This document shows, piece after piece, positions 7,530-20,076 of a stretch of 64,000 nucleotides of DNA. The stretch lies in NCBI RefSeq assembly GCF_030684675.1, contig NZ_JAUXXZ010000024.1:1-64000 (forward strand). Reading direction: 5' to 3'. Within the stretch, counting starts at the first letter, position 1, and each line of letters starts with the position of its first letter. The stretch comes from Daejeonella sp. GTDB taxonomy: Bacteria > Bacteroidota > Bacteroidia > Sphingobacteriales > Sphingobacteriaceae. Under the pieces are notes generated by a model that saw only the letters and a program-made list of their open reading frames with translations, was not told the DNA's origin and did no database searches. The translations under genes were made by a program, and so were the position numbers.

Positions 7530-8126
7530 TTATATCGGCAGATTGGATGCAAACTGTTGTATTTCCGGCTTGATATTTACCAGATAGTCAATGTCATCAA
7601 AGCCATTGATCATATTGCTTTTTTTGTATGAGCTGATGTCAAATGATTCTTTATCTCCTGTTGACAGAATGCAAATCGTCTGTTCCGGCAAATTCACTTC
7701 TAGTTCTGTTTTAGGATCTGCTTCAATCGCCTGAAATATTTTATCAGCAAACCCAGGACTAACCTGTACCGGTAAAACCCCAATGTTAAGGCAGTTGCCT
7801 TTGAAAATATCTGCAAAGAAGCTGGACACTACACATCTGAATCCATAATCATAAATTGCCCATGCAGCATGTTCCCTGGATGAACCAGAACCAAAGTTTT
7901 TTCCTCCAACCAGAATTTTACCACTGTAAAGCGGGTTGTTGAGTACGAATTCTGCTTTAGGACTGTCATCTGAGTTATATCTCCAGTCGCGGAAAAGGTT
8001 ATCTCCGAATCCTACACGTTCTGTAGCTTTTAAAAAGCGGGCAGGTATGATCTGATCAGTATCCACGTTTTCAATTGACAATGGAACTGCAGAACTTTTT
8101 AATATGTTGAATTTATCGTAAGCCAT
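7530..8126 (-). CDS. leuD: 3-isopropylmalate dehydratase small subunit
   Basis: 198 residues. It supplies the swivelling domain of isopropylmalate isomerase, completing the active site of LeuC. Hallmarks are NVDTDQIIPARFLK near the N-terminus, GKNFGSGSSREHAAWA with the substrate-binding Ser/Arg loop, and NCLNIGVLPV. The C-terminus, INGFDDIDYLVN, is mirrored in the chimeric gene at 11272-12285. It lies 29 bases after leuC and 14 bases before the next gene, so the genes are tightly coupled. Confidence 0.97.
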   Translation of the reverse strand: MAYDKFNILKSSAVPLSIENVDTDQIIPARFLKATERVGFGDNLFRDWRYNSDDSPKAEFVLNNPLYSGKILVGGKNFGSGSSREHAAWAIYDYGFRCVVSSFFADIFKGNCLNIGVLPVQVSPGFADKIFQAIEADPKTELEVNLPEQTICILSTGDKESFDISSYKKSNMINGFDDIDYLVNIKPEIQQFASNLPI

Positions 8127-8155: not shown

Positions 8156-9553
8156 TTATTGAATTAATGTTCTCGGATCAGTTACTACTCCGGTTACTGC
8201 AGCAGCTGCTGCAACCAGCGGACTTGCCAGCATGGTCCTGGAACCCGGACCCTGACGTCCTTCAAAGTTCCTGTTCGAAGTACTGACGGCATATTTTCCT
8301 GCCGGGATTTTATCATCGTTCATAGCCAGACATGCAGAACACCCTGGCTGACGCAAAGTGAAGCCAGCTTCCGTGAAAATATCCAGCAAGCCTTCTTCCT
8401 GAATTTGTTTTTCAACAATATGTGATCCGGGAACAAGCCATGCGGTAACATTATCTGCTTTCTTTCTTCCTTTTACAATGGAAGCAAAAGCTCTGAAATC
8501 TTCAATTCTGCCATTGGTACAGCTGCCAATGAATACATAATCAACCGGTTTCCCCATCATTGCCTCGCCTTCCTGGAAACCCATGTAGTTTAATGATTTG
8601 GCAAATGTTGCAGCCCCGCCTTCAACTTCTCCTGCTTTAGGAATTGCATTCGAAATGCCCATACCCATTCCAGGATTAGTACCATAGGTGATCATTGGTT
8701 CAATGGTAGAACCGTCAAATGTATATTCCTTATCAAAAACTGCATCAGCATCTGTTTTCAGGCTCTTATAATAAGCCAGTGCTCTGTCCCATGCTTCGCC
8801 TTTCGGACTGAATTCGCGGCCTTTCACGTAGTTGATGGTAGTTTCATCAGGTGCGATCATACCACCTCTTGCACCCATTTCGATGCTCAGGTTACACACC
8901 GTCATCCGGCCTTCCATGCTCATGTTTTCGAAGACTTCGCCGGCATACTCTACAAAATATCCCGTGGCACCCGAAGTACTCAATTGTGATATGATAAACA
9001 ATGCAACGTCTTTTGGTGTTACCCCTTTACCCAACTCACCATTGATGTTGATTCTCATCTTCTTTGGCTTAGGCTGCATGATACACTGAGTAGTTAGGAC
9101 CATTTCAACTTCAGAAGTGCCTATACCAAAAGCGATTGCACCGAACGCACCATGAGTTGAAGTATGTGAATCACCACAAACAATGGTTGCACCTGGTTGT
9201 GTGATACCATACTCAGGCCCCACCACATGAACGATACCATTTTTCTGATGCCCTAAACCCCAGTAACTGATTCCGTGTTCTTTTGAATTGGATTCAAGTG
9301 CCTTCAACTGATTCGCTGAAAGAGGATCTGCAACCGGTAAATGCTGATTGATGGTCGGGGTATTGTGATCTGCAGTAGCAAATGTACGTTCTGGATACAA
9401 TACCTTAAGTCCTCTGCTTTTCAGTCCAAGAAAGGCCACCGGACTAGTAACTTCATGAACCATATGACGGTCAATAAATAACACATCAGGCCCACCTTCA
9501 ATCTTACGAACCACGTGAGAATCCCACACTTTGTCAAACAATGTATTGCTCAT
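8156..9553 (-). CDS. leuC: 3-isopropylmalate dehydratase large subunit
   Basis: 465 residues of the aconitase superfamily; with LeuD it isomerises 2- to 3-isopropylmalate. The three [4Fe-4S] cysteines are visible at 345 (FIGSCTNGR), 405 and 408 ([10 protein letters not shown]). The active-site [13 protein letters not shown] is at about 126-138. Length is typical. The N-terminal 290 residues align with the non-catalytic paralogue at 11272-12285. It is preceded by a long stretch of short-period repeats (9556-9691). Confidence 0.97.
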
Positions 9554-9555
9554 AT

Positions 9556-9691
9556 ATTTTAGTATTTAGTACTCAGTACTTAGTATTTAGTACTCAGTAT
9601 TTAGTATTTAGATATTAACCGATTTATCACTTATCACTTCTTACTTACAACTTACAACCTACTACTTATAACTTATCACTTACAACTTCTA
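9556..9691. repeat. Short-period repeats between leuC and leuA
   Basis: Two adjoining arrays: TTAGTACTCAGTA-type units (9560-9612) and ACTTATAACTTATCACTTACAAC-like units (9625-9691). Read on the minus strand, the second begins at the TAG stop codon of leuA (9689-9691), followed at once by AAGTTGTAAGTG. Confidence 0.85.
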
Positions 9692-11230
9692 TACAAACTT
9701 ATTCAGTGCATCCAGATAAGCATTTGCAGATGCACGTACTATATCTGTACTGAAACCATAACCTTTGTAGGATTTACCCTCATTGATAACAAGCATATCC
9801 ACTTTACTCACATCATCACTGCCGCTGTGAATTGCATGGATATTAAACTCTTTGATGTTGAAGCTTCTTCCGATGATTTTTTCAATTGCCTTGATCGTGG
9901 CATCTACCGGTCCGTTTCCTCCTGAAGTAGCTTCATGGATACTGCCTTTGTAAAACAATTTAATAGTTGCCTCCGGACTTGCCTGATCACCACAGCTCAC
10001 CTGCAAGCTCTTTATAGAAAGACCGTCTTTGTAATTTGACTCGGCCTTATCGCCCATTAGCAGAAGAATATCATCATCCCTGATTTCCTTTTTGCCATCA
10101 GCCATAGTCAGGAATTTATCATAGACCTGATCAAGATCTATGCGTTCAATAGTATATCCCAAGCGTTCAAGATGATGATTCAGGGCATGCCTTCCGCTGC
10201 GCGCGGTAAGGATGATTTCAGACTGGTCAATGCCTACATCTTCAGGATTGATGATCTCATAAGTTTCACGGTGTTTTAATACACCGTCCTGATGAATACC
10301 TGAACTATGTGCAAATGCATTCTTACCAACAATGGCTTTGTTTGGCTGAACAGGCATGCGCATCATGCGGCTCACCATCCCACTAAGCTCGTATAAGTGC
10401 TTGCTATTTACCTGATGAGTAAAATGAAGACTTTTGTGAGTCTTTAGAATCATCACAATTTCTTCCAGTGCCGTATTCCCGGCACGCTCACCAATTCCAT
10501 TGATCGTACATTCTACCTGGCGCGCTCCGTTCTGAATACCCGCAATACTGTTGGCAGTAGCTAATCCCAAATCATTATGACAATGAACTGAAATGATAGC
10601 ATGGTCAATATTTTTTACATTCTCTTTCAGGAAACGGATCTTTTCACCGTATTGTTCCGGCAGGCAATATCCGTTTGTGTCGGGGATATTTACTACTGTG
10701 GCTCCTGCTGCAATAACAGCTTCGACCATTTGCGCCAGAAATACGTTATCCGCTCTTCCTGCATCTTCTGCATAGAACTCGATATCTTCAACAAAACTCT
10801 TGGCATACTTCACAGCCTCAATGGCACGCTCAAGAATTGCTTCCCTTGTACTATTGAATTTATATTTAATGTGGTTATCCGATGAACCGATACCTGTATG
10901 AATCCTTGGTCGCTTAGCAAACTTTAGGGCTTCAGCAGCCGAATCAATATCTCCTTTATTTGCACGGGTTAATGCACAAATTACCGGCTCACGAACAGCT
11001 TTCGAGAGTTCAACCACGCTTTGAAAATCACCGGGACTTGAAATCGGAAAGCCGGCTTCAATGATATCTACTCCGAGTTTTTCAAGGGCTTTGCCTATTT
11101 CGATCTTTTCAACGGTAGATAACTGACATCCGGGTACCTGCTCTCCATCCCTTAAGGTGGTGTCAAAAATATAGATGCGGTTTGGGTCGTGTAACATACT
11201 TTTTTTCTTTAACAAAGCATTTTGCTCCAT
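9689..11230 (-). CDS. leuA: 2-isopropylmalate synthase
   Basis: 513 residues. It condenses acetyl-CoA and 2-oxoisovalerate, the committed step to leucine. The catalytic domain carries [16 protein letters not shown] near residues 19-34, the metal-binding HxH in [11 protein letters not shown], and [15 protein letters not shown]. The C-terminal regulatory domain (about 375-513), which binds leucine in the family, is present ([16 protein letters not shown]). An internal ATG at 11197 (MLHDPNRIY) is an equally plausible start and gives the more common N-terminus. It sits between the LeuC/LeuD chimera and leuC. Confidence 0.96.
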
Positions 11231-11271: not shown

Positions 11272-12285
11272 TTATGCCCCGTCGTAAACTTTATATATCG
11301 TTGTGCTTTCGAAATTTTCAATACTATCCAGATGGTTTAACAGATAATCAGTATCGTTATAACCTGCAATTATTGCCGCACCATTAGGAGTAATCATTTC
11401 TGACCGTTCATTTGCCGGTTTAGACTGGATTAGCCTGGAAAGACCAATACCATAATTCCCCGGACCAATATCTTCTGCATCGAACTCAAGAACTTCGTCA
11501 AAAACCGAAGCCTCATCAGAATACAGACTTTGCCAGAATGAAAGAGTTTCTTCTGCACTTTCACTTTCTTGCATAATTTCATTGCTTCGCAGGTATTCAA
11601 AAGTGGTATCATCCGGTGCTATTATACCGCCAATAGCCCCAATTTCCCTGCTCATATTACAGATAGCCATCCGGCCTTCCATATCCAGATCAAGGATGGT
11701 ATCTCCTGCATATTCAATAAAATAACCATTTGCCTCTGCTGCGGATATTTCTGAAAGCAGGAAATGATTAATATCTTTTGCCCCAAGTCCTTTAGCCAAT
11801 CTCCCATTCACTTCTACCTTCATTCGCTTAGGCTTGTTTATCAGCAAGCATTGTGTTGCCAATACCTGTTCTACTAATAATTCATTGATATTGATAGATA
11901 AAACCCCAAAAGCACCTAAATCATCTGTATGATTTTGATCAAAAACCAGAGTTTGTCCCGGAAATGCAATCAAAATATCGGTCTGATCAACAAGATTCTG
12001 TTCAAACTTTTCCAATCCGAAATCAAGACAATTCCTGTTAAAGAGGTCAAGCTGAAATCGCGACAGGTCTGATGCTGGCAGATGCTGGCTATAAGCCGGA
12101 TCCTTCAGAACCAGGGTTTGAGCAGGTCTGAAAACCGGTATATTTCGTTTCCGTAAACCCTCAAAAGCTCTTACACTCGTTATCTTATTGATGAGATGAA
12201 CATCAATGTATAAGGTATCCGGAAATCCCGCATTTCTGCTGACAACATGTTTGTTCCAGATCTTATCAAACAGGGTATGTGCCAT
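11272..12285 (-). CDS. Non-catalytic LeuC-like/LeuD-tail chimera
   Basis: About 337 residues from the ATG at 12285; the frame stays open to 12327, but those extra codons lie in repeat DNA. The N-terminal 290 residues align with LeuC of the same operon: [15 protein letters not shown] against Leu[16 protein letters not shown], then [23 protein letters not shown] and [10 protein letters not shown]. The Fe-S cysteine region (LeuC 345-408) is absent, and the active-site [11 protein letters not shown] reads [11 protein letters not shown]. The final 40 residues ([21 protein letters not shown]) resemble the LeuD C-terminus (INGFDDIDYLVN). It therefore cannot work as an isomerase. It may be a regulatory or assembly partner of LeuCD, or a relic. 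The long intact frame argues against a simple pseudogene. Confidence 0.8.
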
Positions 12286-12287
12286 AG

Positions 12288-12372
12288 TTTGTAGGTTATA
12301 AGTTGTAAATTTTAAGTTTATGCGCAACGGCTGTTAACTTAAAACCCACAACTTAGTACTTATAACTTATTA
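12288..12372. repeat. Inverted short-period repeat between ilvC and chimera gene
   Basis: GGTTATAAGTTGTAAATTTTAAG on one side and CTTAAAA..CAACTTA..ACTTATAAC on the other flank a 13-nt spacer, so the transcript can fold into an imperfect hairpin. On the minus strand the array starts in the TAA stop codon of ilvC. Confidence 0.75.
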
Positions 12373-13425
12373 CTTCTCAGGTTGATTTTCAGGGCGTAAA
12401 CTTCTAACTGCCTGACCTGCCTGCCAGATCTCACTGTCGTGAAGTGTTTTAAGCTCTGCTTCAAGTTTAACGCGGTAATCAGGTTGACTATTCAATTTAA
12501 TTGTACGCTCAGCTTCTTTACCAGATGCTACACTCTCATATAATTCATCAAATACAGGCTGGGTAGCATCACGGAAACGTCCTTTCCAGTCTAATGCACC
12601 ACGTTGTGCTGTAGTTGAGCAGTTCGCATACATCCAGTCCATACCGTTTTCTGCTACCAATGGCATCAGACTCTGAGTAAGTTCTTCAACAGTTTCGTTG
12701 AACGCTTCAGAAGGAGAGTGTCCGTTTCTGCGAAGGGTATTGTACTGTGCTTCGAAGATACCTGCGATTGCGCCCATCAAAGTTCCGCGCTCACCAGTTA
12801 AGTCAGAGTAAACTTCTTTACGGAAATCAGTTTCGAACAGATATCCTGATCCAACACCAATTCCTAATGCAATTGCACGTGTTCTGCCTTTTCCTGTAGC
12901 ATCCTGGTGGATAGCGAATGAAGAATTCAAACCTTTACCAGCTAAAAACAGACGGCGTAATGATGTACCTGATCCTTTTGGAGCAACCAGGATCACGTCT
13001 ACATCAGCAGGAGGGATAATACCGGTTTGCTCTTTGTAAGTGATACCAAATCCATGCGAAAAATAAAGTGCTTTTCCAGGAGTAAGGTATTTTTTTATCG
13101 TTGGCCAAAGTGCAATCTGTCCGGCATCTGATAACAGATATTGAATGATTGTACCTTTTTCGGCAGCTTCTTCAATTTCGAACAAAGTTTCGCCAGGAAC
13201 CCATCCGTCAGCAATCGCTTTATCCCAGGTTTTTGAATCTTTACGCTGTCCGATAATCACTCTGATGCCATTGTCGCGTAGGTTTAATGCTTGTCCGGGA
13301 CCCTGAACACCATAACCGATAATTGCTACAGTTTCATCCTTCAGAACTTCACGAGCCTTGTCTAGGGGGAATTCTTCGCGGGTTACTACCTCTTCTGTAA
13401 CTCCACCGAAATTGATCTTTGCCAT
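12370..13425 (-). CDS. ilvC: Ketol-acid reductoisomerase
   Basis: 351 residues. It converts acetolactate or acetohydroxybutyrate to the dihydroxy acid, using NAD(P)H and Mg2+. The Rossmann motif GYGVQGPGQALNLRDNG is at about 38-54, the phosphate-binding IIGQRKDSKTW follows, then the catalytic region APKGSGTSLRRLF, and the metal-binding Asp/Glu residues in YSDLTGERGTLMGAIAGIFEAQ. The length fits a class I enzyme. It is the fourth gene of the ilv-leu operon, and its stop codon lies in a short-period repeat. Confidence 0.97.
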   Translation of the reverse strand: MAKINFGGVTEEVVTREEFPLDKAREVLKDETVAIIGYGVQGPGQALNLRDNGIRVIIGQRKDSKTWDKAIADGWVPGETLFEIEEAAEKGTIIQYLLSDAGQIALWPTIKKYLTPGKALYFSHGFGITYKEQTGIIPPADVDVILVAPKGSGTSLRRLFLAGKGLNSSFAIHQDATGKGRTRAIALGIGVGSGYLFETDFRKEVYSDLTGERGTLMGAIAGIFEAQYNTLRRNGHSPSEAFNETVEELTQSLMPLVAENGMDWMYANCSTTAQRGALDWKGRFRDATQPVFDELYESVASGKEAERTIKLNSQPDYRVKLEAELKTLHDSEIWQAGQAVRSLRPENQPEK

Positions 13426-13492: not shown

Positions 13493-14167
13493 TTACATGG
13501 TGAATATCCGCTGACCTTTATTCAGGTATTCATTTTCATTAACATCTTCACCAGGTTCTGCTTTTTCAAATTCACGTAGTTTTCGGTTAAAGCCATCACT
13601 GTTCTTGATAATGGCTACACGTGCGCTGCGTACAAACTCAATGAGTCCAAATGGTTGAAGTATCCTGATCAGGGCATCGGTTTCTTCGCGATGGCCTGTA
13701 GTTTCAAACACTGTATAATCCTTGCGGATCACAACTGCTCTGGCGCCATTTTCACGAAGTAAGCGCTCCACACTTGCTTTTTCTGCAATAATATCTGTAG
13801 GCACTTTATAAAGAGCCATTTCCTGCCAGATAATATCATCGTTGGTATTGAAATACACCTTTAGAACTTCAACCTGCTTTTCAATTTGCCTGGAAAGTTT
13901 TCTGACCACATCTTCTGTTTCCTGAACCACAATATTAAAGCGATGAATACTCTCGATCTCAGAAGGCGAGGTATTCAGACTATGAATATTTATTTTGCGA
14001 CGGGTGAAGATGATCGCAATCCGGTTAAGAAGCCCAATCTGGTTCTCAGTATAGACAGTTATGGTGAATTCCTGTTTAGCCTCATCCCGGCCCCCGTCCG
14101 TACCGGCACGGGCGGGCTCTCCTGAGGAGAGGGAGGCTGGTGCGATATTAATTTTATTTGAATCCAT
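13493..14167 (-). CDS. ilvN: Acetolactate synthase small (regulatory) subunit
   Basis: 224 residues. The N-terminal ACT domain (from about residue 32, QEFTITVYTENQIGLLNRI) confers feedback control and stimulates IlvB. The C-terminal ALS-regulatory domain (about 110-190, ALYKVPTDIIAEKASVERLL) follows. Residues about 9-31 (PASLSSGEPARAGTDGGRDE) are not part of the family: they are encoded by a palindromic repeat at 14080-14139 inserted in frame. The start ATG at 14167 lies upstream of the repeat. A start downstream of it would need a non-ATG codon, so the tail is probably translated. Confidence 0.93.
   Translation of the reverse strand: MDSNKINIAPASLSSGEPARAGTDGGRDEAKQEFTITVYTENQIGLLNRIAIIFTRRKINIHSLNTSPSEIESIHRFNIVVQETEDVVRKLSRQIEKQVEVLKVYFNTNDDIIWQEMALYKVPTDIIAEKASVERLLRENGARAVVIRKDYTVFETTGHREETDALIRILQPFGLIEFVRSARVAIIKNSDGFNRKLREFEKAEPGEDVNENEYLNKGQRIFTM
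14080..14139. repeat. Palindromic repeat inserted in frame in ilvN
   Basis: An outer element (GCCTCATCCCGG at one end, CCTCTCC.. and GGGAGGC at the other) is split by an inner imperfect palindrome, CCCGTCCGTACCGGCACGGG (14093-14112 plus CGGG). Beside it is the perfect palindrome CTCTCCTGAGGAGAG (14117-14131). GC content is far above the surroundings. It keeps the ilvN frame open. Confidence 0.8.
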
Positions 14168-14211: not shown

Positions 14212-15948
14212 TTATTTCAATCTGATCTCGCTAACACTACATCCCTGTGGTACCATCGGGAATACATTATTCTCTTTGGTAACCATTACTTCAAGCAGGA
14301 AAGAACCTTTGTGTTCAAGCATTTCTTTTAAAGAAGAGGAAATCTCCCCACGCTCTGAAATACTCTTTCCCTTAATTCTGTAGGCAGCGGCAAGTGCAAC
14401 AAAATCAGGACTTTCTATATCAACGAAGGAATAACGGTGCTGATTAAAAAGTTCCTGCCATTGCCTTACCATTCCCAGGAATCTGTTGTTTAGAATCAGG
14501 ATCTTCACGTCGATGTTACTCTGCATAATTGTTCCCAATTCCTGAAGGGTCATCTGAAAGCCGCCGTCGCCGATAACAGCAACAACTGTACGTTCGGGTG
14601 CTCCAAATTTTGCTCCTATGGCTGCGGGTAATGCAAATCCCATGGTTCCAAGTCCGCCGCTGGTTACATTACTTCTGGTTTTGTTAAGTTTTGCATACCT
14701 GCAGGCTACCATCTGGTGCTGGCCTACGTCGGTAACGATGATTGCCTCACCATGAGTTAATTCATTTAAGTGACTTATCACTTCACCCATAGTCAGTTCA
14801 CCAGAAGCCGGATGTAGTTCATCATTGATTACAGCTTCGATTTCTTTCTGATCGAAATCTCTGAATTTCTTTAGCCATTCAGGATAGGTCTTCTGCTGAA
14901 TAAGCGCTGTTAAGGCCGGTAAGGTCTCCTTACAATCGCCCCACACCGGAACAGTAGTCTGTACGTTTTTATCTATTTCTGAAGGGTCGATATCCAGGTG
15001 GATGATCTTTGCCTGTTTGGCATACTTATCAAGGCGGCCGGTTACACGGTCGTCAAATCTCATTCCAATAGCAATCATTACATCGCATTCATTGGTCAGA
15101 ACGTTAGGTCCGTAATTCCCATGCATACCCAGCATTCCCACATTTAATGGGTGATCTGTTGGGATAGCCCCGGCTCCCAGAATGGTCCATGCTGAAGGGA
15201 TTCCGCTCTTTTCTACGAAAGCTTTGAATTCTTTCTCTGCCTCTCCAAGAATTACTCCCTGTCCCCACAATACAAAAGGCTTTTTTGCCTGATTGATCAA
15301 GGCAGCTGCCTGTTCTATATATTCATTGCGGATGAGCGGCTTAGGACGATAGCTACGGATATGATTGCAGGGGGTATAACCACTATAATCGAATTTCTGT
15401 ATCTGAGCATTCTTTGTAATATCAATCAAAACAGGTCCGGGTCTTCCACTTCTCGCGATGTAGAAAGCCTTGCTGAGTACTTCCGGAATTTCTGTAGCAT
15501 CAGTGACCTGATAATTCCATTTTGTGACAGGAGTGGTTATATTGATTACATCTGTCTCCTGAAATGCGTCAGTACCCAAAAGATGTGCAAATACCTGGCC
15601 GGTGATACAAACCAGAGGTGTGCTGTCGATCATAGCATCAGCTAATCCGGTAACCAGGTTGGTAGCACCGGGGCCGCTGGTTGCAAATACCACACCGACC
15701 TTGCCCGAAGTTCTGGCAAAACCCTGGCCGGCGTGAATACCACCCTGCTCATGTCTTACCAAAATATGGTTTAATTTTTCTTTGTAATCGTACAATGCAT
15801 CATAGATCGGCATAATTGCCCCGCCAGGGTACCCGAATATTACTTCTGTGCCTTCGGCGATCAATGCTTCGAGAAGGGCTACAGAACCCGAAATTTCAAT
15901 CGTTTCAACTCCTGTAGGGTTACTCAATGCCTGCTGCTCAATTTCCAT
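14212..15948 (-). CDS. ilvB: Acetolactate synthase large (catalytic) subunit
   Basis: 578 residues. A ThDP-, FAD- and Mg2+-dependent enzyme that condenses pyruvate with pyruvate or 2-oxobutyrate, the first common step to Val/Leu/Ile. The N-terminal ThDP-PYR domain carries the catalytic Glu in LVRHEQGGIHAGQGFAR, the central domain holds FAD contacts (GMLGMHGNYGPN), and the C-terminal PP domain carries the ThDP motif IGDGGFQMTLQELGTIMQ with NNRFLGMVRQWQ. Length is normal. ilvN follows directly downstream as its regulatory subunit. Confidence 0.98.
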   Translation of the reverse strand: MEIEQQALSNPTGVETIEISGSVALLEALIAEGTEVIFGYPGGAIMPIYDALYDYKEKLNHILVRHEQGGIHAGQGFARTSGKVGVVFATSGPGATNLVTGLADAMIDSTPLVCITGQVFAHLLGTDAFQETDVINITTPVTKWNYQVTDATEIPEVLSKAFYIARSGRPGPVLIDITKNAQIQKFDYSGYTPCNHIRSYRPKPLIRNEYIEQAAALINQAKKPFVLWGQGVILGEAEKEFKAFVEKSGIPSAWTILGAGAIPTDHPLNVGMLGMHGNYGPNVLTNECDVMIAIGMRFDDRVTGRLDKYAKQAKIIHLDIDPSEIDKNVQTTVPVWGDCKETLPALTALIQQKTYPEWLKKFRDFDQKEIEAVINDELHPASGELTMGEVISHLNELTHGEAIIVTDVGQHQMVACRYAKLNKTRSNVTSGGLGTMGFALPAAIGAKFGAPERTVVAVIGDGGFQMTLQELGTIMQSNIDVKILILNNRFLGMVRQWQELFNQHRYSFVDIESPDFVALAAAYRIKGKSISERGEISSSLKEMLEHKGSFLLEVMVTKENNVFPMVPQGCSVSEIRLK

Positions 15949-16008: not shown

Positions 16009-17688
16009 TTATTCTTCGTCAGTTACGCAACCTTCGCTGGCGTTCTTTACCTGTTTAAAATATTTAAATAACACTCCGTTCTTAACAGGAGGTGCCGGCT
16101 GCTGCCATAGTTTTCTTCTGTGTTCCATTTCTTCGGCTGTGATCATTACATCGATGGAGTTTTTGTTCGCGTCAATCTGAATGATATCATCATCCTTCAC
16201 AAGACCAATATTTCCGCCTTCAAAAGCTTCCGGTGTAATATGCCCAACCACAAAACCATGTGTTCCTCCTGAAAAGCGTCCATCTGTAATAAGCGCAACT
16301 GAAGCACCTAAGCCGGCTCCGAAGATCGCAGATGTTGGTTTAAGCATTTCGGGCATGCCCGGTGCACCTTTAGGCCCAACATTCCTGATTACAACAACAT
16401 CGCCTGCTTTCACCTTCCCGCTACTGATACCATGGATCAATTCAAACTCACCGTCAAATACACGCGCCGGACCAGTGAATGATTCGCCTTCCTTTCCACT
16501 TATTTTAGCAACAGAACCCTGAGGTGCAAGGTTGCCGTAAAGCATTTGTAAATGCCCGGTTTTCTTTATCGGATTTTCGTAAGGATAGATTACATCCTGA
16601 TTTTCAAAATTAAGATCAGCAGCTTCGGCCACATTTTCTGCCAGTGTTCTTCCTGTAACGGTCAGGCAATCACCATGCAGCAATCCTTTTTGTAACAGAT
16701 ATTTTAAAACTGAGGGTAATCCGCCAATCGCATGAACGTCTTCCATCATGTATTTTCCGCTAGGTTTAAGATCAGCAATAACTGAAGTCTCATCACTAAT
16801 CCTCTGGAAATATTCAAGGTCAAGCTTAATTCCAACCGATTTAGCCATGGCAATCAAATGCAGAACTGCATTAGTTGAACCACCAAGAACCATTACCGTT
16901 ATTATGGCATTATGAAATGCCTTTTCTGTCATGATATCTCTTGGTTTGATATCTTTCTCAAGTAGTATCCTGATGTATTTACCAGCATCAAGACATTCCT
17001 GCTTCTTCTCTTCACTCAATGCCAGATAGGTTGAGCTGTAAGGTAAACTCATTCCCATTGCTTCAATTGCTGAAGCCATTGTATTTGCAGTATACATGCC
17101 ACCACAGGCACCTGCACCCGGACAAGCGTGTTCTATAACTCCCTGAAAATCTTCTTCTGCAAGGTTGCCAGCCATTTTCTGACCTAATGCTTCAAATGCC
17201 GAAACAATATTCAGCGATTGCCCTTTATAATTCCCGGAATGGATACTTCCACCATAAACCATGATTGCCGGTCTGTTCAAGCGGCCCATCGCCATGATAG
17301 CTCCCGGCATATTCTTATCACAACCCGGTAATGCAATAAGTCCGTCGTAGTAATGTCCGCCGCAGACAGTTTCGATAGAATCGGCGATCAAATCTCTGGA
17401 AACCAGAGAATAACGCATTCCTTCTGTACCATTTGTTATACCATCACTGATACCAATGGTATGAAACATTAAACCAACCAAATCATTGTTCCAGACACCT
17501 TTCTTGACCACTGCGGCAAGTTCATTCAGGTGCATATTGCAGGTATTACCATCATAGCCCATACTTACAATGCCTACCTGTGCCTTGGCCAGATCTTCTC
17601 TGGTTAATCCAATCCCATACAGCATGGCCTGTGAGGCTGGTTGCGTTGGATCCTGGGTGATTGTTTTGCTGTATTTATTAAGTTCCAT
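16009..17688 (-). CDS. ilvD: Dihydroxy-acid dehydratase
   Basis: 559 residues. An Fe-S enzyme converting dihydroxyisovalerate or dihydroxymethylvalerate to the 2-oxo acids. Cluster and active-site motifs are [36 protein letters not shown] and, near the C-terminus, [16 protein letters not shown]. It is the first structural gene of the operon, and its ATG lies 50 bases after the attenuator hairpin. Confidence 0.98.
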
Positions 17689-17737: not shown

Positions 17738-17767
17738 AAAAAAAAAGCCTTTCTATTAAAGGAAGGC
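17738..17767 (-). terminator. Attenuator terminator before ilvD
   Basis: On the minus strand GCCTTCC (17767-17761) pairs with GAAAGGC (17753-17747; one G-T pair) and is followed by nine T (17746-17738). It sits between the leader ORF stop (17798) and ilvD. The segment AGCGCC (17770-17765) overlaps its 5' arm and is exactly complementary to GGCGCT in leader codons 13-14, giving a candidate competing structure. Confidence 0.8.
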
Positions 17768-17797
17768 GCTGGTCTTTTTATTTGATTTTAAAAGATT

Positions 17798-17923
17798 TTA
17801 CACCTTAAGAGCAGGGACGAGCAGAATATAAATGAGGGAAAGGATACCCGGAATAGTCAGTTTATTAAAATTAAGATTCAAAGCGCCATTCATTATACAA
17901 ACGTTTATAATTTCCTGTTTCAT
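17798..17923 (-). CDS. ilv-leu operon leader peptide (41 residues)
   Basis: ATG at 17923 and TAA at 17800-17798. The peptide starts MKQEIINVCIMNGALNLN and ends SLIYILLVPALKV. Seven Ile, eight Leu and three Val make 18 of 41 residues (44%), concentrated at the end (IYILLVPALKV). The stop codon lies 30 bases before a terminator hairpin with a nine-T tract, which is followed by ilvD. This is the standard architecture of translation-coupled attenuation: ribosome stalling at scarce charged Ile-, Leu- or Val-tRNA would favour an alternative fold that lets transcription proceed. The function is inferred from composition and layout, not from similarity to a known leader. Confidence 0.8.
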   Translation of the reverse strand: MKQEIINVCIMNGALNLNFNKLTIPGILSLIYILLVPALKV

Positions 17924-18012
17924 TTAAATCTCAATTTAAGGCCTTCGGATTTAAGTATCAATAGGCAATGCATTTTTTTTAAATTAGAATAAAATATTAA
18001 AAATTTTTAAAA

Positions 18013-18555: not shown

Positions 18556-20076
<1,521 letters not shown>

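Follow-up and report, generated by a model that had tools for sequence, protein, structure and literature searches.

The ilv-leu operon in the window (the whole stretch of 64,000 nucleotides of a Daejeonella sp. contig that was analysed) is most likely controlled by a ribosome-mediated transcription attenuator of the leader-peptide type. The sequence shows a leader ORF, its control codons, an intrinsic terminator, mutually exclusive pairings and their conservation; promoter, translation, stalling and switching are inferred. In the direction of transcription, the leader comprises the following elements:

17932–17961, minus strand: predicted promoter (TTG 17961–17959, 20-nt spacer, TAAATTG box 17938–17932), from a conserved block and its likeness to flavobacterial −7 boxes
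17894–17923, minus strand: upstream in-frame extension of a 41-codon version of the ORF, probably untranslated (frame closed in L004–L007; at the predicted transcription start)
17798–17893, minus strand: probable leader ORF of 31 codons, MNGALNLNFNKLTIPGILSLIYILLVPALKV, with 14 of 31 residues I/L/V; start kept in nine of ten aligned rows
17882–17887, minus strand: GGCGCT near the ORF start (codons 3–4 of 31), an alternative pairing partner by complementarity
17816–17845, minus strand: control codons 17–26 (ILSLIYILLV), 8 of 10 I/L/V by the codon table
17800–17806, minus strand: putative antiterminator 5' arm AAGGTGT, spanning the final two sense codons and the first stop-codon base, from folding and alignment pairing
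17773–17795, minus strand: inner antiterminator stem, TCTTTT (17795–17790) with AAAAGA (17778–17773), from folding
17763–17769, minus strand: putative antiterminator 3' arm GCGCCTT, overlapping the terminator 5' arm, from folding and alignment pairing
17738–17767, minus strand: intrinsic terminator, stem-loop 17767–17747 and nine T (17746–17738); −7.2 kcal/mol, 94.2% of cells paired in the alignment

In the proposed mechanism, RNA polymerase would start near 17925 and transcribe a leader containing the 31-codon ORF with its cluster of Ile, Leu and Val codons. When the charged tRNAs for these amino acids are plentiful, the leading ribosome would keep up with RNA polymerase as far as the stop codon and cover AAGGUGU; GCGCCUU, left free, would then form the terminator's 5' arm, ending transcription at the U-run before ilvD. 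When Ile, Leu or Val is scarce, the ribosome would stall at about codons 17–24; AAGGUGU would then stay free and pair with GCGCCUU once the latter is made, and the operon would be transcribed.

The operon behind the leader makes the very amino acids of the control codons, as its Pfam domains (ilvD, ilvB, ilvN, ilvC, leuA, leuC and leuD) indicate. On the minus strand the genes follow one another in this order:

16009–17688, minus strand: ilvD, the first structural gene (Pfam ILVD_EDD_N and ILV_EDD_C)
14212–15948, minus strand: ilvB, acetolactate synthase large subunit (TPP enzyme domains; name inferred from context)
13493–14167, minus strand: ilvN, acetolactate synthase small subunit (Pfam domain)
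12370–13425, minus strand: ilvC, ketol-acid reductoisomerase (Pfam domain)
11272–12327, minus strand: truncated LeuC-like aconitase paralogue (Aconitase profile positions 1–289 of 463)
9689–11230, minus strand: leuA (HMGL-like and LeuA_dimer)
8156–9553, minus strand: leuC (Aconitase, full profile; name inferred from context)
7530–8126, minus strand: leuD (Aconitase_C; name inferred from context)

Behind leuD lie a gene that we take to be similar to citramalate-synthase-type enzymes and then one that is presumably leuB-like. The LeuC-like gene between ilvC and leuA lacks the C-terminal part of the Aconitase profile. Matches of similar length (61–94% identity) occur in nine other genomes of the genus, five of these rows listing internal stops, and split copies were found in G009 and G018. 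Its product is possibly a non-catalytic partner.

The leader had been read in an earlier note as an ORF of 41 codons (17923–17798, minus strand) with 18 I/L/V residues, and that ORF is present exactly as described, in coordinates and letters. Its start, however, was rejected here. ATG 17923 sits only 7 bases past the block TTAAATTGA (17939–17931), which is unchanged in 10 of 10 aligned genus rows and was found in 14 of the 15 genus regions in which ilvD comes first. The block resembles the flavobacterial −7 boxes TAnnTTTG/TAnnTTGY (PMC9723704). Since it is both conserved and similar to a −7 box, transcription is predicted to start near 17925, coinciding with ATG 17923. Above the internal start, a TGA two codons upstream closes the frame in L004, L005, L006 and L007; in L008 a TAA does so, with no start codon in between. 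The internal ATG 17893 is retained in nine of the ten aligned rows and is replaced by GTG in L007. Given the position of ATG 17923 at the predicted start of transcription and the closed frame in relatives, the translated ORF probably runs from 17893 to 17798, with 31 codons instead of 41.

Seven homologous leaders of equal length (L002–L006, L008 and L012, of which L002 and L003 are nearly alike) carry I, L or V in all seven sequences at positions 5, 18, 20, 21, 23, 24, 27, 28 and 29. Eight positions within codons 18–29 are thus constantly Ile/Leu/Val, most of them with more than one codon in use. The window leader is 12 nt shorter than these homologues, with a gap in the alignment that keeps the frame. 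Third codon positions were the most divergent in 15 of the 21 homologue pairs and tied in 2. Among the 18 regions from the genus, ilvD comes first in 15, and in three (L014–L016) it is directly preceded by a gene that is presumably ilvE-like. An intact branched-chain amino acid (BCAA) leader was present in nine of the 15 (L001–L006, L008, L012 and L013). Of the remaining six, L007 keeps the ORF without the BCAA cluster, L009 and L018 have a five-codon ORF before an intact terminator, L011 is broken by an in-frame stop, and L017 has a different BCAA-rich ORF with no terminator detected; in L010, neither leader ORF nor hairpin was found upstream of ilvD. In L007, L009, L010, L011 and L018 the leader appears to have decayed within the genus.

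The survey of ilvD upstream regions across the phylum comprised 149 sequences: 18 from the genus, 71 from named genomes and 60 from a phylum-wide sample. A region was scored positive if it held an ORF of 12–65 codons with at least eight I/L/V within 12 codons and a terminator within 150 nt. This rule was satisfied by 97 of the 149 regions, compared with 11 of the 149 reverse complements and 1 of 298 dinucleotide shuffles. After removal of spurious hits, a leader-terminator unit preceded ilvD, or the gene in front of it, in 95 of 149 regions (genus 8/18, named genomes 60/71, phylum sample 27/60), a count that omits seven spurious peptides, units whose terminator lies over 60 nt past the stop and, among the regions of the phylum sample, weak terminators. 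The spurious hits, one each in L121, L122, L165, L001, L017, L092 and L097, were judged from context; among the misses, L005 and L015 have ORFs that pass and hairpins that fail the terminator rule. The named set consists of the 80 best matches to this ilvD minus nine from the genus and is biased towards relatives for that reason. The phylum sample is limited to genomes with a close IlvD (64 of 158) and covers the upstream DNA of 60 of the 65 listed matches, without G000 and G005 (already covered), G112, G077 and the second copy in G068. Long Ile/Val runs are unmistakable in the leaders of Chitinophagaceae and in those of Pedobacter upstream of the ilvE-like gene. Two complete BCAA leader and terminator units stand in tandem upstream of ilvD in L131, L135 and L160.

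On both strands of the 463,418 bases of the window genome the same rule fired 21 times, the present leader included, with 12 of the hits inside long ORFs. The window alone is therefore only suggestive, and it is conservation that decides: the leader-terminator observation is real, and the BCAA leader and attenuator that the earlier note had proposed for the ilv-leu operon gains support from it. No Rfam leader, T-box or riboswitch matched at gathering thresholds; the matches in the window were one tRNA and Flavo-1, both elsewhere. The Flavo-1 RNA match, above its gathering score, lies at 265–361 on the plus strand.

These results also bear on the possibility that the hairpin is an ordinary terminator of the upstream atp transcript, or belongs to a stand-alone short RNA, with the ORF arising by chance. 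The gene upstream in the same direction (18556–20061) reads, we presume, as atpD, and AT-rich DNA yields I/L/V-rich ORFs by chance, as the 21 hits illustrate. However, another terminator-like hairpin is already found between this gene and the leader at about 18215–18179, the leader ORF is conserved in codons and frame, and cognate leaders recur before BCAA genes throughout the sample, which makes this explanation very improbable. A chance ORF was rejected on this conservation and on survey counts far above the controls. Just as improbable is an action of the leader peptide or its translation by other routes, either in trans or by translational coupling to ilvD. The peptide peTrpL reportedly acts in trans. 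Reinitiation from short leader genes near structural genes has been proposed to raise translation, with a distance peak in Bacteroidetes as well (PMC4833913). Here, however, 109 nt including the terminator separate the leader stop from ilvD, and peptide sequences vary between groups while the I/L/V cluster, the ORF-end pairing and the terminator persist.

For the attenuator itself, the arrangement downstream of the ORF is as the earlier note had laid it out: the stop codon (17800–17798) is followed after 30 bases by the terminator stem (17767–17747), the nine T and the ilvD start at 17688. The fold of the whole 188-nt leader was not more stable than shuffles (z 0.57). Locally, the hairpin formed by the ORF end (17810–17763) reaches −9.4 kcal/mol (z −3.48), compared with −7.2 kcal/mol for the terminator. 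In the genus alignment, its helix AAGGTGT:GCGCCTT was paired in 85.7% of cells against 37.1–54.3% when slid; none of its pairs showed a change on both sides, and it did not exceed shuffles. A further complementarity named in the earlier note, CCTTTC (from 17843) with GAAAGG (from 17753), exists in the letters and was dismissed as a conserved pairing, with 75.0% of cells paired against 74.7% in shuffles.

The partner that the earlier note had favoured, GGCGCT (17887–17882) with AGCGCC (17770–17765), is complementary as described and could serve as the antiterminator with or instead of the ORF-end arm. It is the strongest single 10-nt complement to the terminator arm in the window (−12.0 kcal/mol), and the 142-nt fold of the unoccupied leader uses it. 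In the genus alignment it was paired in 76.7% of cells (35.0–60.0% when slid); both sides had changed in three pairs, and 2 of 500 shuffles reached its covariation score. On the other hand, the alignment has ten related genus rows only, slid versions of the GGCGCT helix give up to two both-side changes as well, L012 and L013 have no such helix, and across the phylum a preference of the ORF start for its own terminator arm was seen in just 24 of 68 leaders (see below). GGCGCT would also be free with a ribosome at the stop codon and hence cannot report stalling alone. While this helix may contribute in the genus, it is unlikely to be the antiterminator. Most likely, to judge from the wider set of leaders, the antiterminator uses the ORF end, AAGGTGT (17806–17800) with GCGCCTT (17769–17763). 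The first reading was probably mis-started and in part mis-paired.

The ORF-end pairing was followed in 68 non-redundant leaders, a set cleared of spurious hits, of units whose terminator lies over 60 nt past the stop and of near-duplicates (likeness above 85%). In 64 of them, the 10-nt segment that best complements the 5' arm of the terminator was centred within −25 to +15 nt of the ORF end. Four depart from this: the window (L001), L004, L006 and one unit of the tandem pair in L131. For the first three, the best single complement sits near the ORF start instead, and in L006 the ORF-end pairing is nearly missing (−1.5 kcal/mol). The ORF end favoured its own terminator arm over unlike arms in 62 of 68 leaders (mean −12.7 vs −8.3 kcal/mol), the ORF middle in 34. 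Arm letters vary by group with complementarity kept, as in AAGGCGCT with AGCGCC in Pedobacter and GGAGGTGG with CCGCCTCC in Chitinophagaceae. A protector (1:2) hairpin left no sign in the segments tested (−105 to −75 and −60 to −30), where the own ORF end was preferred in 33 of 68 leaders, and was rejected as a general feature within that scope; an uncontrolled position profile dips slightly at about −75 to −56. L067, L070, L081, L099 and further Chitinophagaceae-type leaders carry GGAGG, a core similar to Shine-Dalgarno sequences, in the ORF-end arm and CCTCC in the terminator arm. Translation starts in this phylum rely on other signals (PMC9723704), and perhaps GGAGG is tolerated in the arm for that reason.

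The median distance is 11 nt from the last clustered BCAA codon to the ORF-end arm and 25 nt from the stop to the terminator, a geometry that fits a ribosome sparing the arm when stalled and covering it at the stop. Masked folding, with a ribosome footprint from general knowledge and 10 nt beyond the A-site codon assumed covered, favoured the terminator in 68 of 68 leaders with the ribosome at the stop. When the ribosome was stalled at the last clustered codon instead, 56 of 68 leaders had the arm sequestered before synthesis of the terminator 3' half. The equilibrium fold nevertheless kept the terminator (probability above 0.5) in 54 of 68 stalled leaders, a clear switch being confined to a minority. 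The window belongs to that minority: its terminator probability fell from 0.93 (ribosome at the stop) to 0.01 (stall at the last clustered BCAA codon). Sequestration of its arm, prior to synthesis of the terminator 3' half, reached only 0.47 on that stall and 0.59 with the stall two codons before it. In L006 there was no switch at the last codon (0.86 in both states). In silico, a mutually exclusive antiterminator would accordingly be released by the position of the ribosome.

Elsewhere in the same genome, a Thr-rich leader precedes thrA, a Phe/Tyr-rich leader a prephenate dehydratase gene and a Trp-Trp leader a trpE-like gene (L108, L112 and L114, respectively), each followed by a terminator 20–22 nt past its stop; the best complement to that terminator's 5' arm is centred 17 to 28 nt upstream of the ORF end. 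Their plan appears similar to that of the ilv leader. A His-rich ORF lies before hisG (L107), where no terminator was detected, and no such leader was seen by eye upstream of two other aspartokinase loci (L109 and L110).

The attenuators of the enterobacterial ilvGMEDA and leuABCD operons, with the leaders ilvL and leuL of E. coli, share with the present case a BCAA-rich leader ORF, an intrinsic terminator before the first gene, an exclusive antiterminator and a BCAA operon. In Daejeonella, unlike the enterobacterial type, the ORF end would itself serve as the antiterminator arm, and the segments tested gave no sign of a protector hairpin; the enterobacterial logic invoked in the earlier note is right only in part. 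A comparative survey of attenuation in bacteria by Lopatovskaya, Seliverstov and Lyubetsky in 2010 is said to exist and may already include Bacteroidetes cases. Our literature search, which covered few subscription journals, brought up no account of an ilv leader from Sphingobacteriales or Chitinophagales, nor of the ORF-end layout in Bacteroidota. For Flavobacterium psychrophilum, of the same phylum, strong clues for leader-peptide attenuation, with structured 5' regions upstream of amino-acid operons, have been reported; the conserved elements named there include pheA and hisG (PMC9723704). The attenuator is thus of a known kind, and the earlier remark that such leaders are little described in the phylum is fair within the literature searched, although the mechanism had already been suggested for Flavobacterium. 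Short ORFs recalling leader peptides are mentioned for Bacteroides thetaiotaomicron (PMC7366714). Actinobacterial ilvB leaders likewise combine terminators before ilv genes with short ORFs in which Ile, Val and Leu codons occur in runs, but these ORFs overlap the terminator hairpins, whereas a 30-nt spacer lies between the two in Daejeonella; in Streptomyces coelicolor, replacement of leader codons was without effect on ilvB (PMC1262725).

The wider pattern in the phylum is more interesting than the single locus. It seems reasonably likely that Bacteroidota share one compact attenuator plan for amino-acid operons, in this genome those for ilv, thr, phe, trp and perhaps his, in which the antiterminator arm would lie in the last codons and the stop of the leader ORF and a single ribosome would mask it directly, with no protector hairpin. 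The C-terminus of the peptide (KV, KAL or GGG) would then be dictated by RNA pairing, not by what the peptide does, and some lineages would stack two units in tandem. Our searches suggest that few studies address how Bacteroidota control amino-acid synthesis. Should the plan hold, a simple rule would predict many unannotated leaders, and with its compact layout the attenuator would test how little RNA structure ribosome-mediated attenuation needs.
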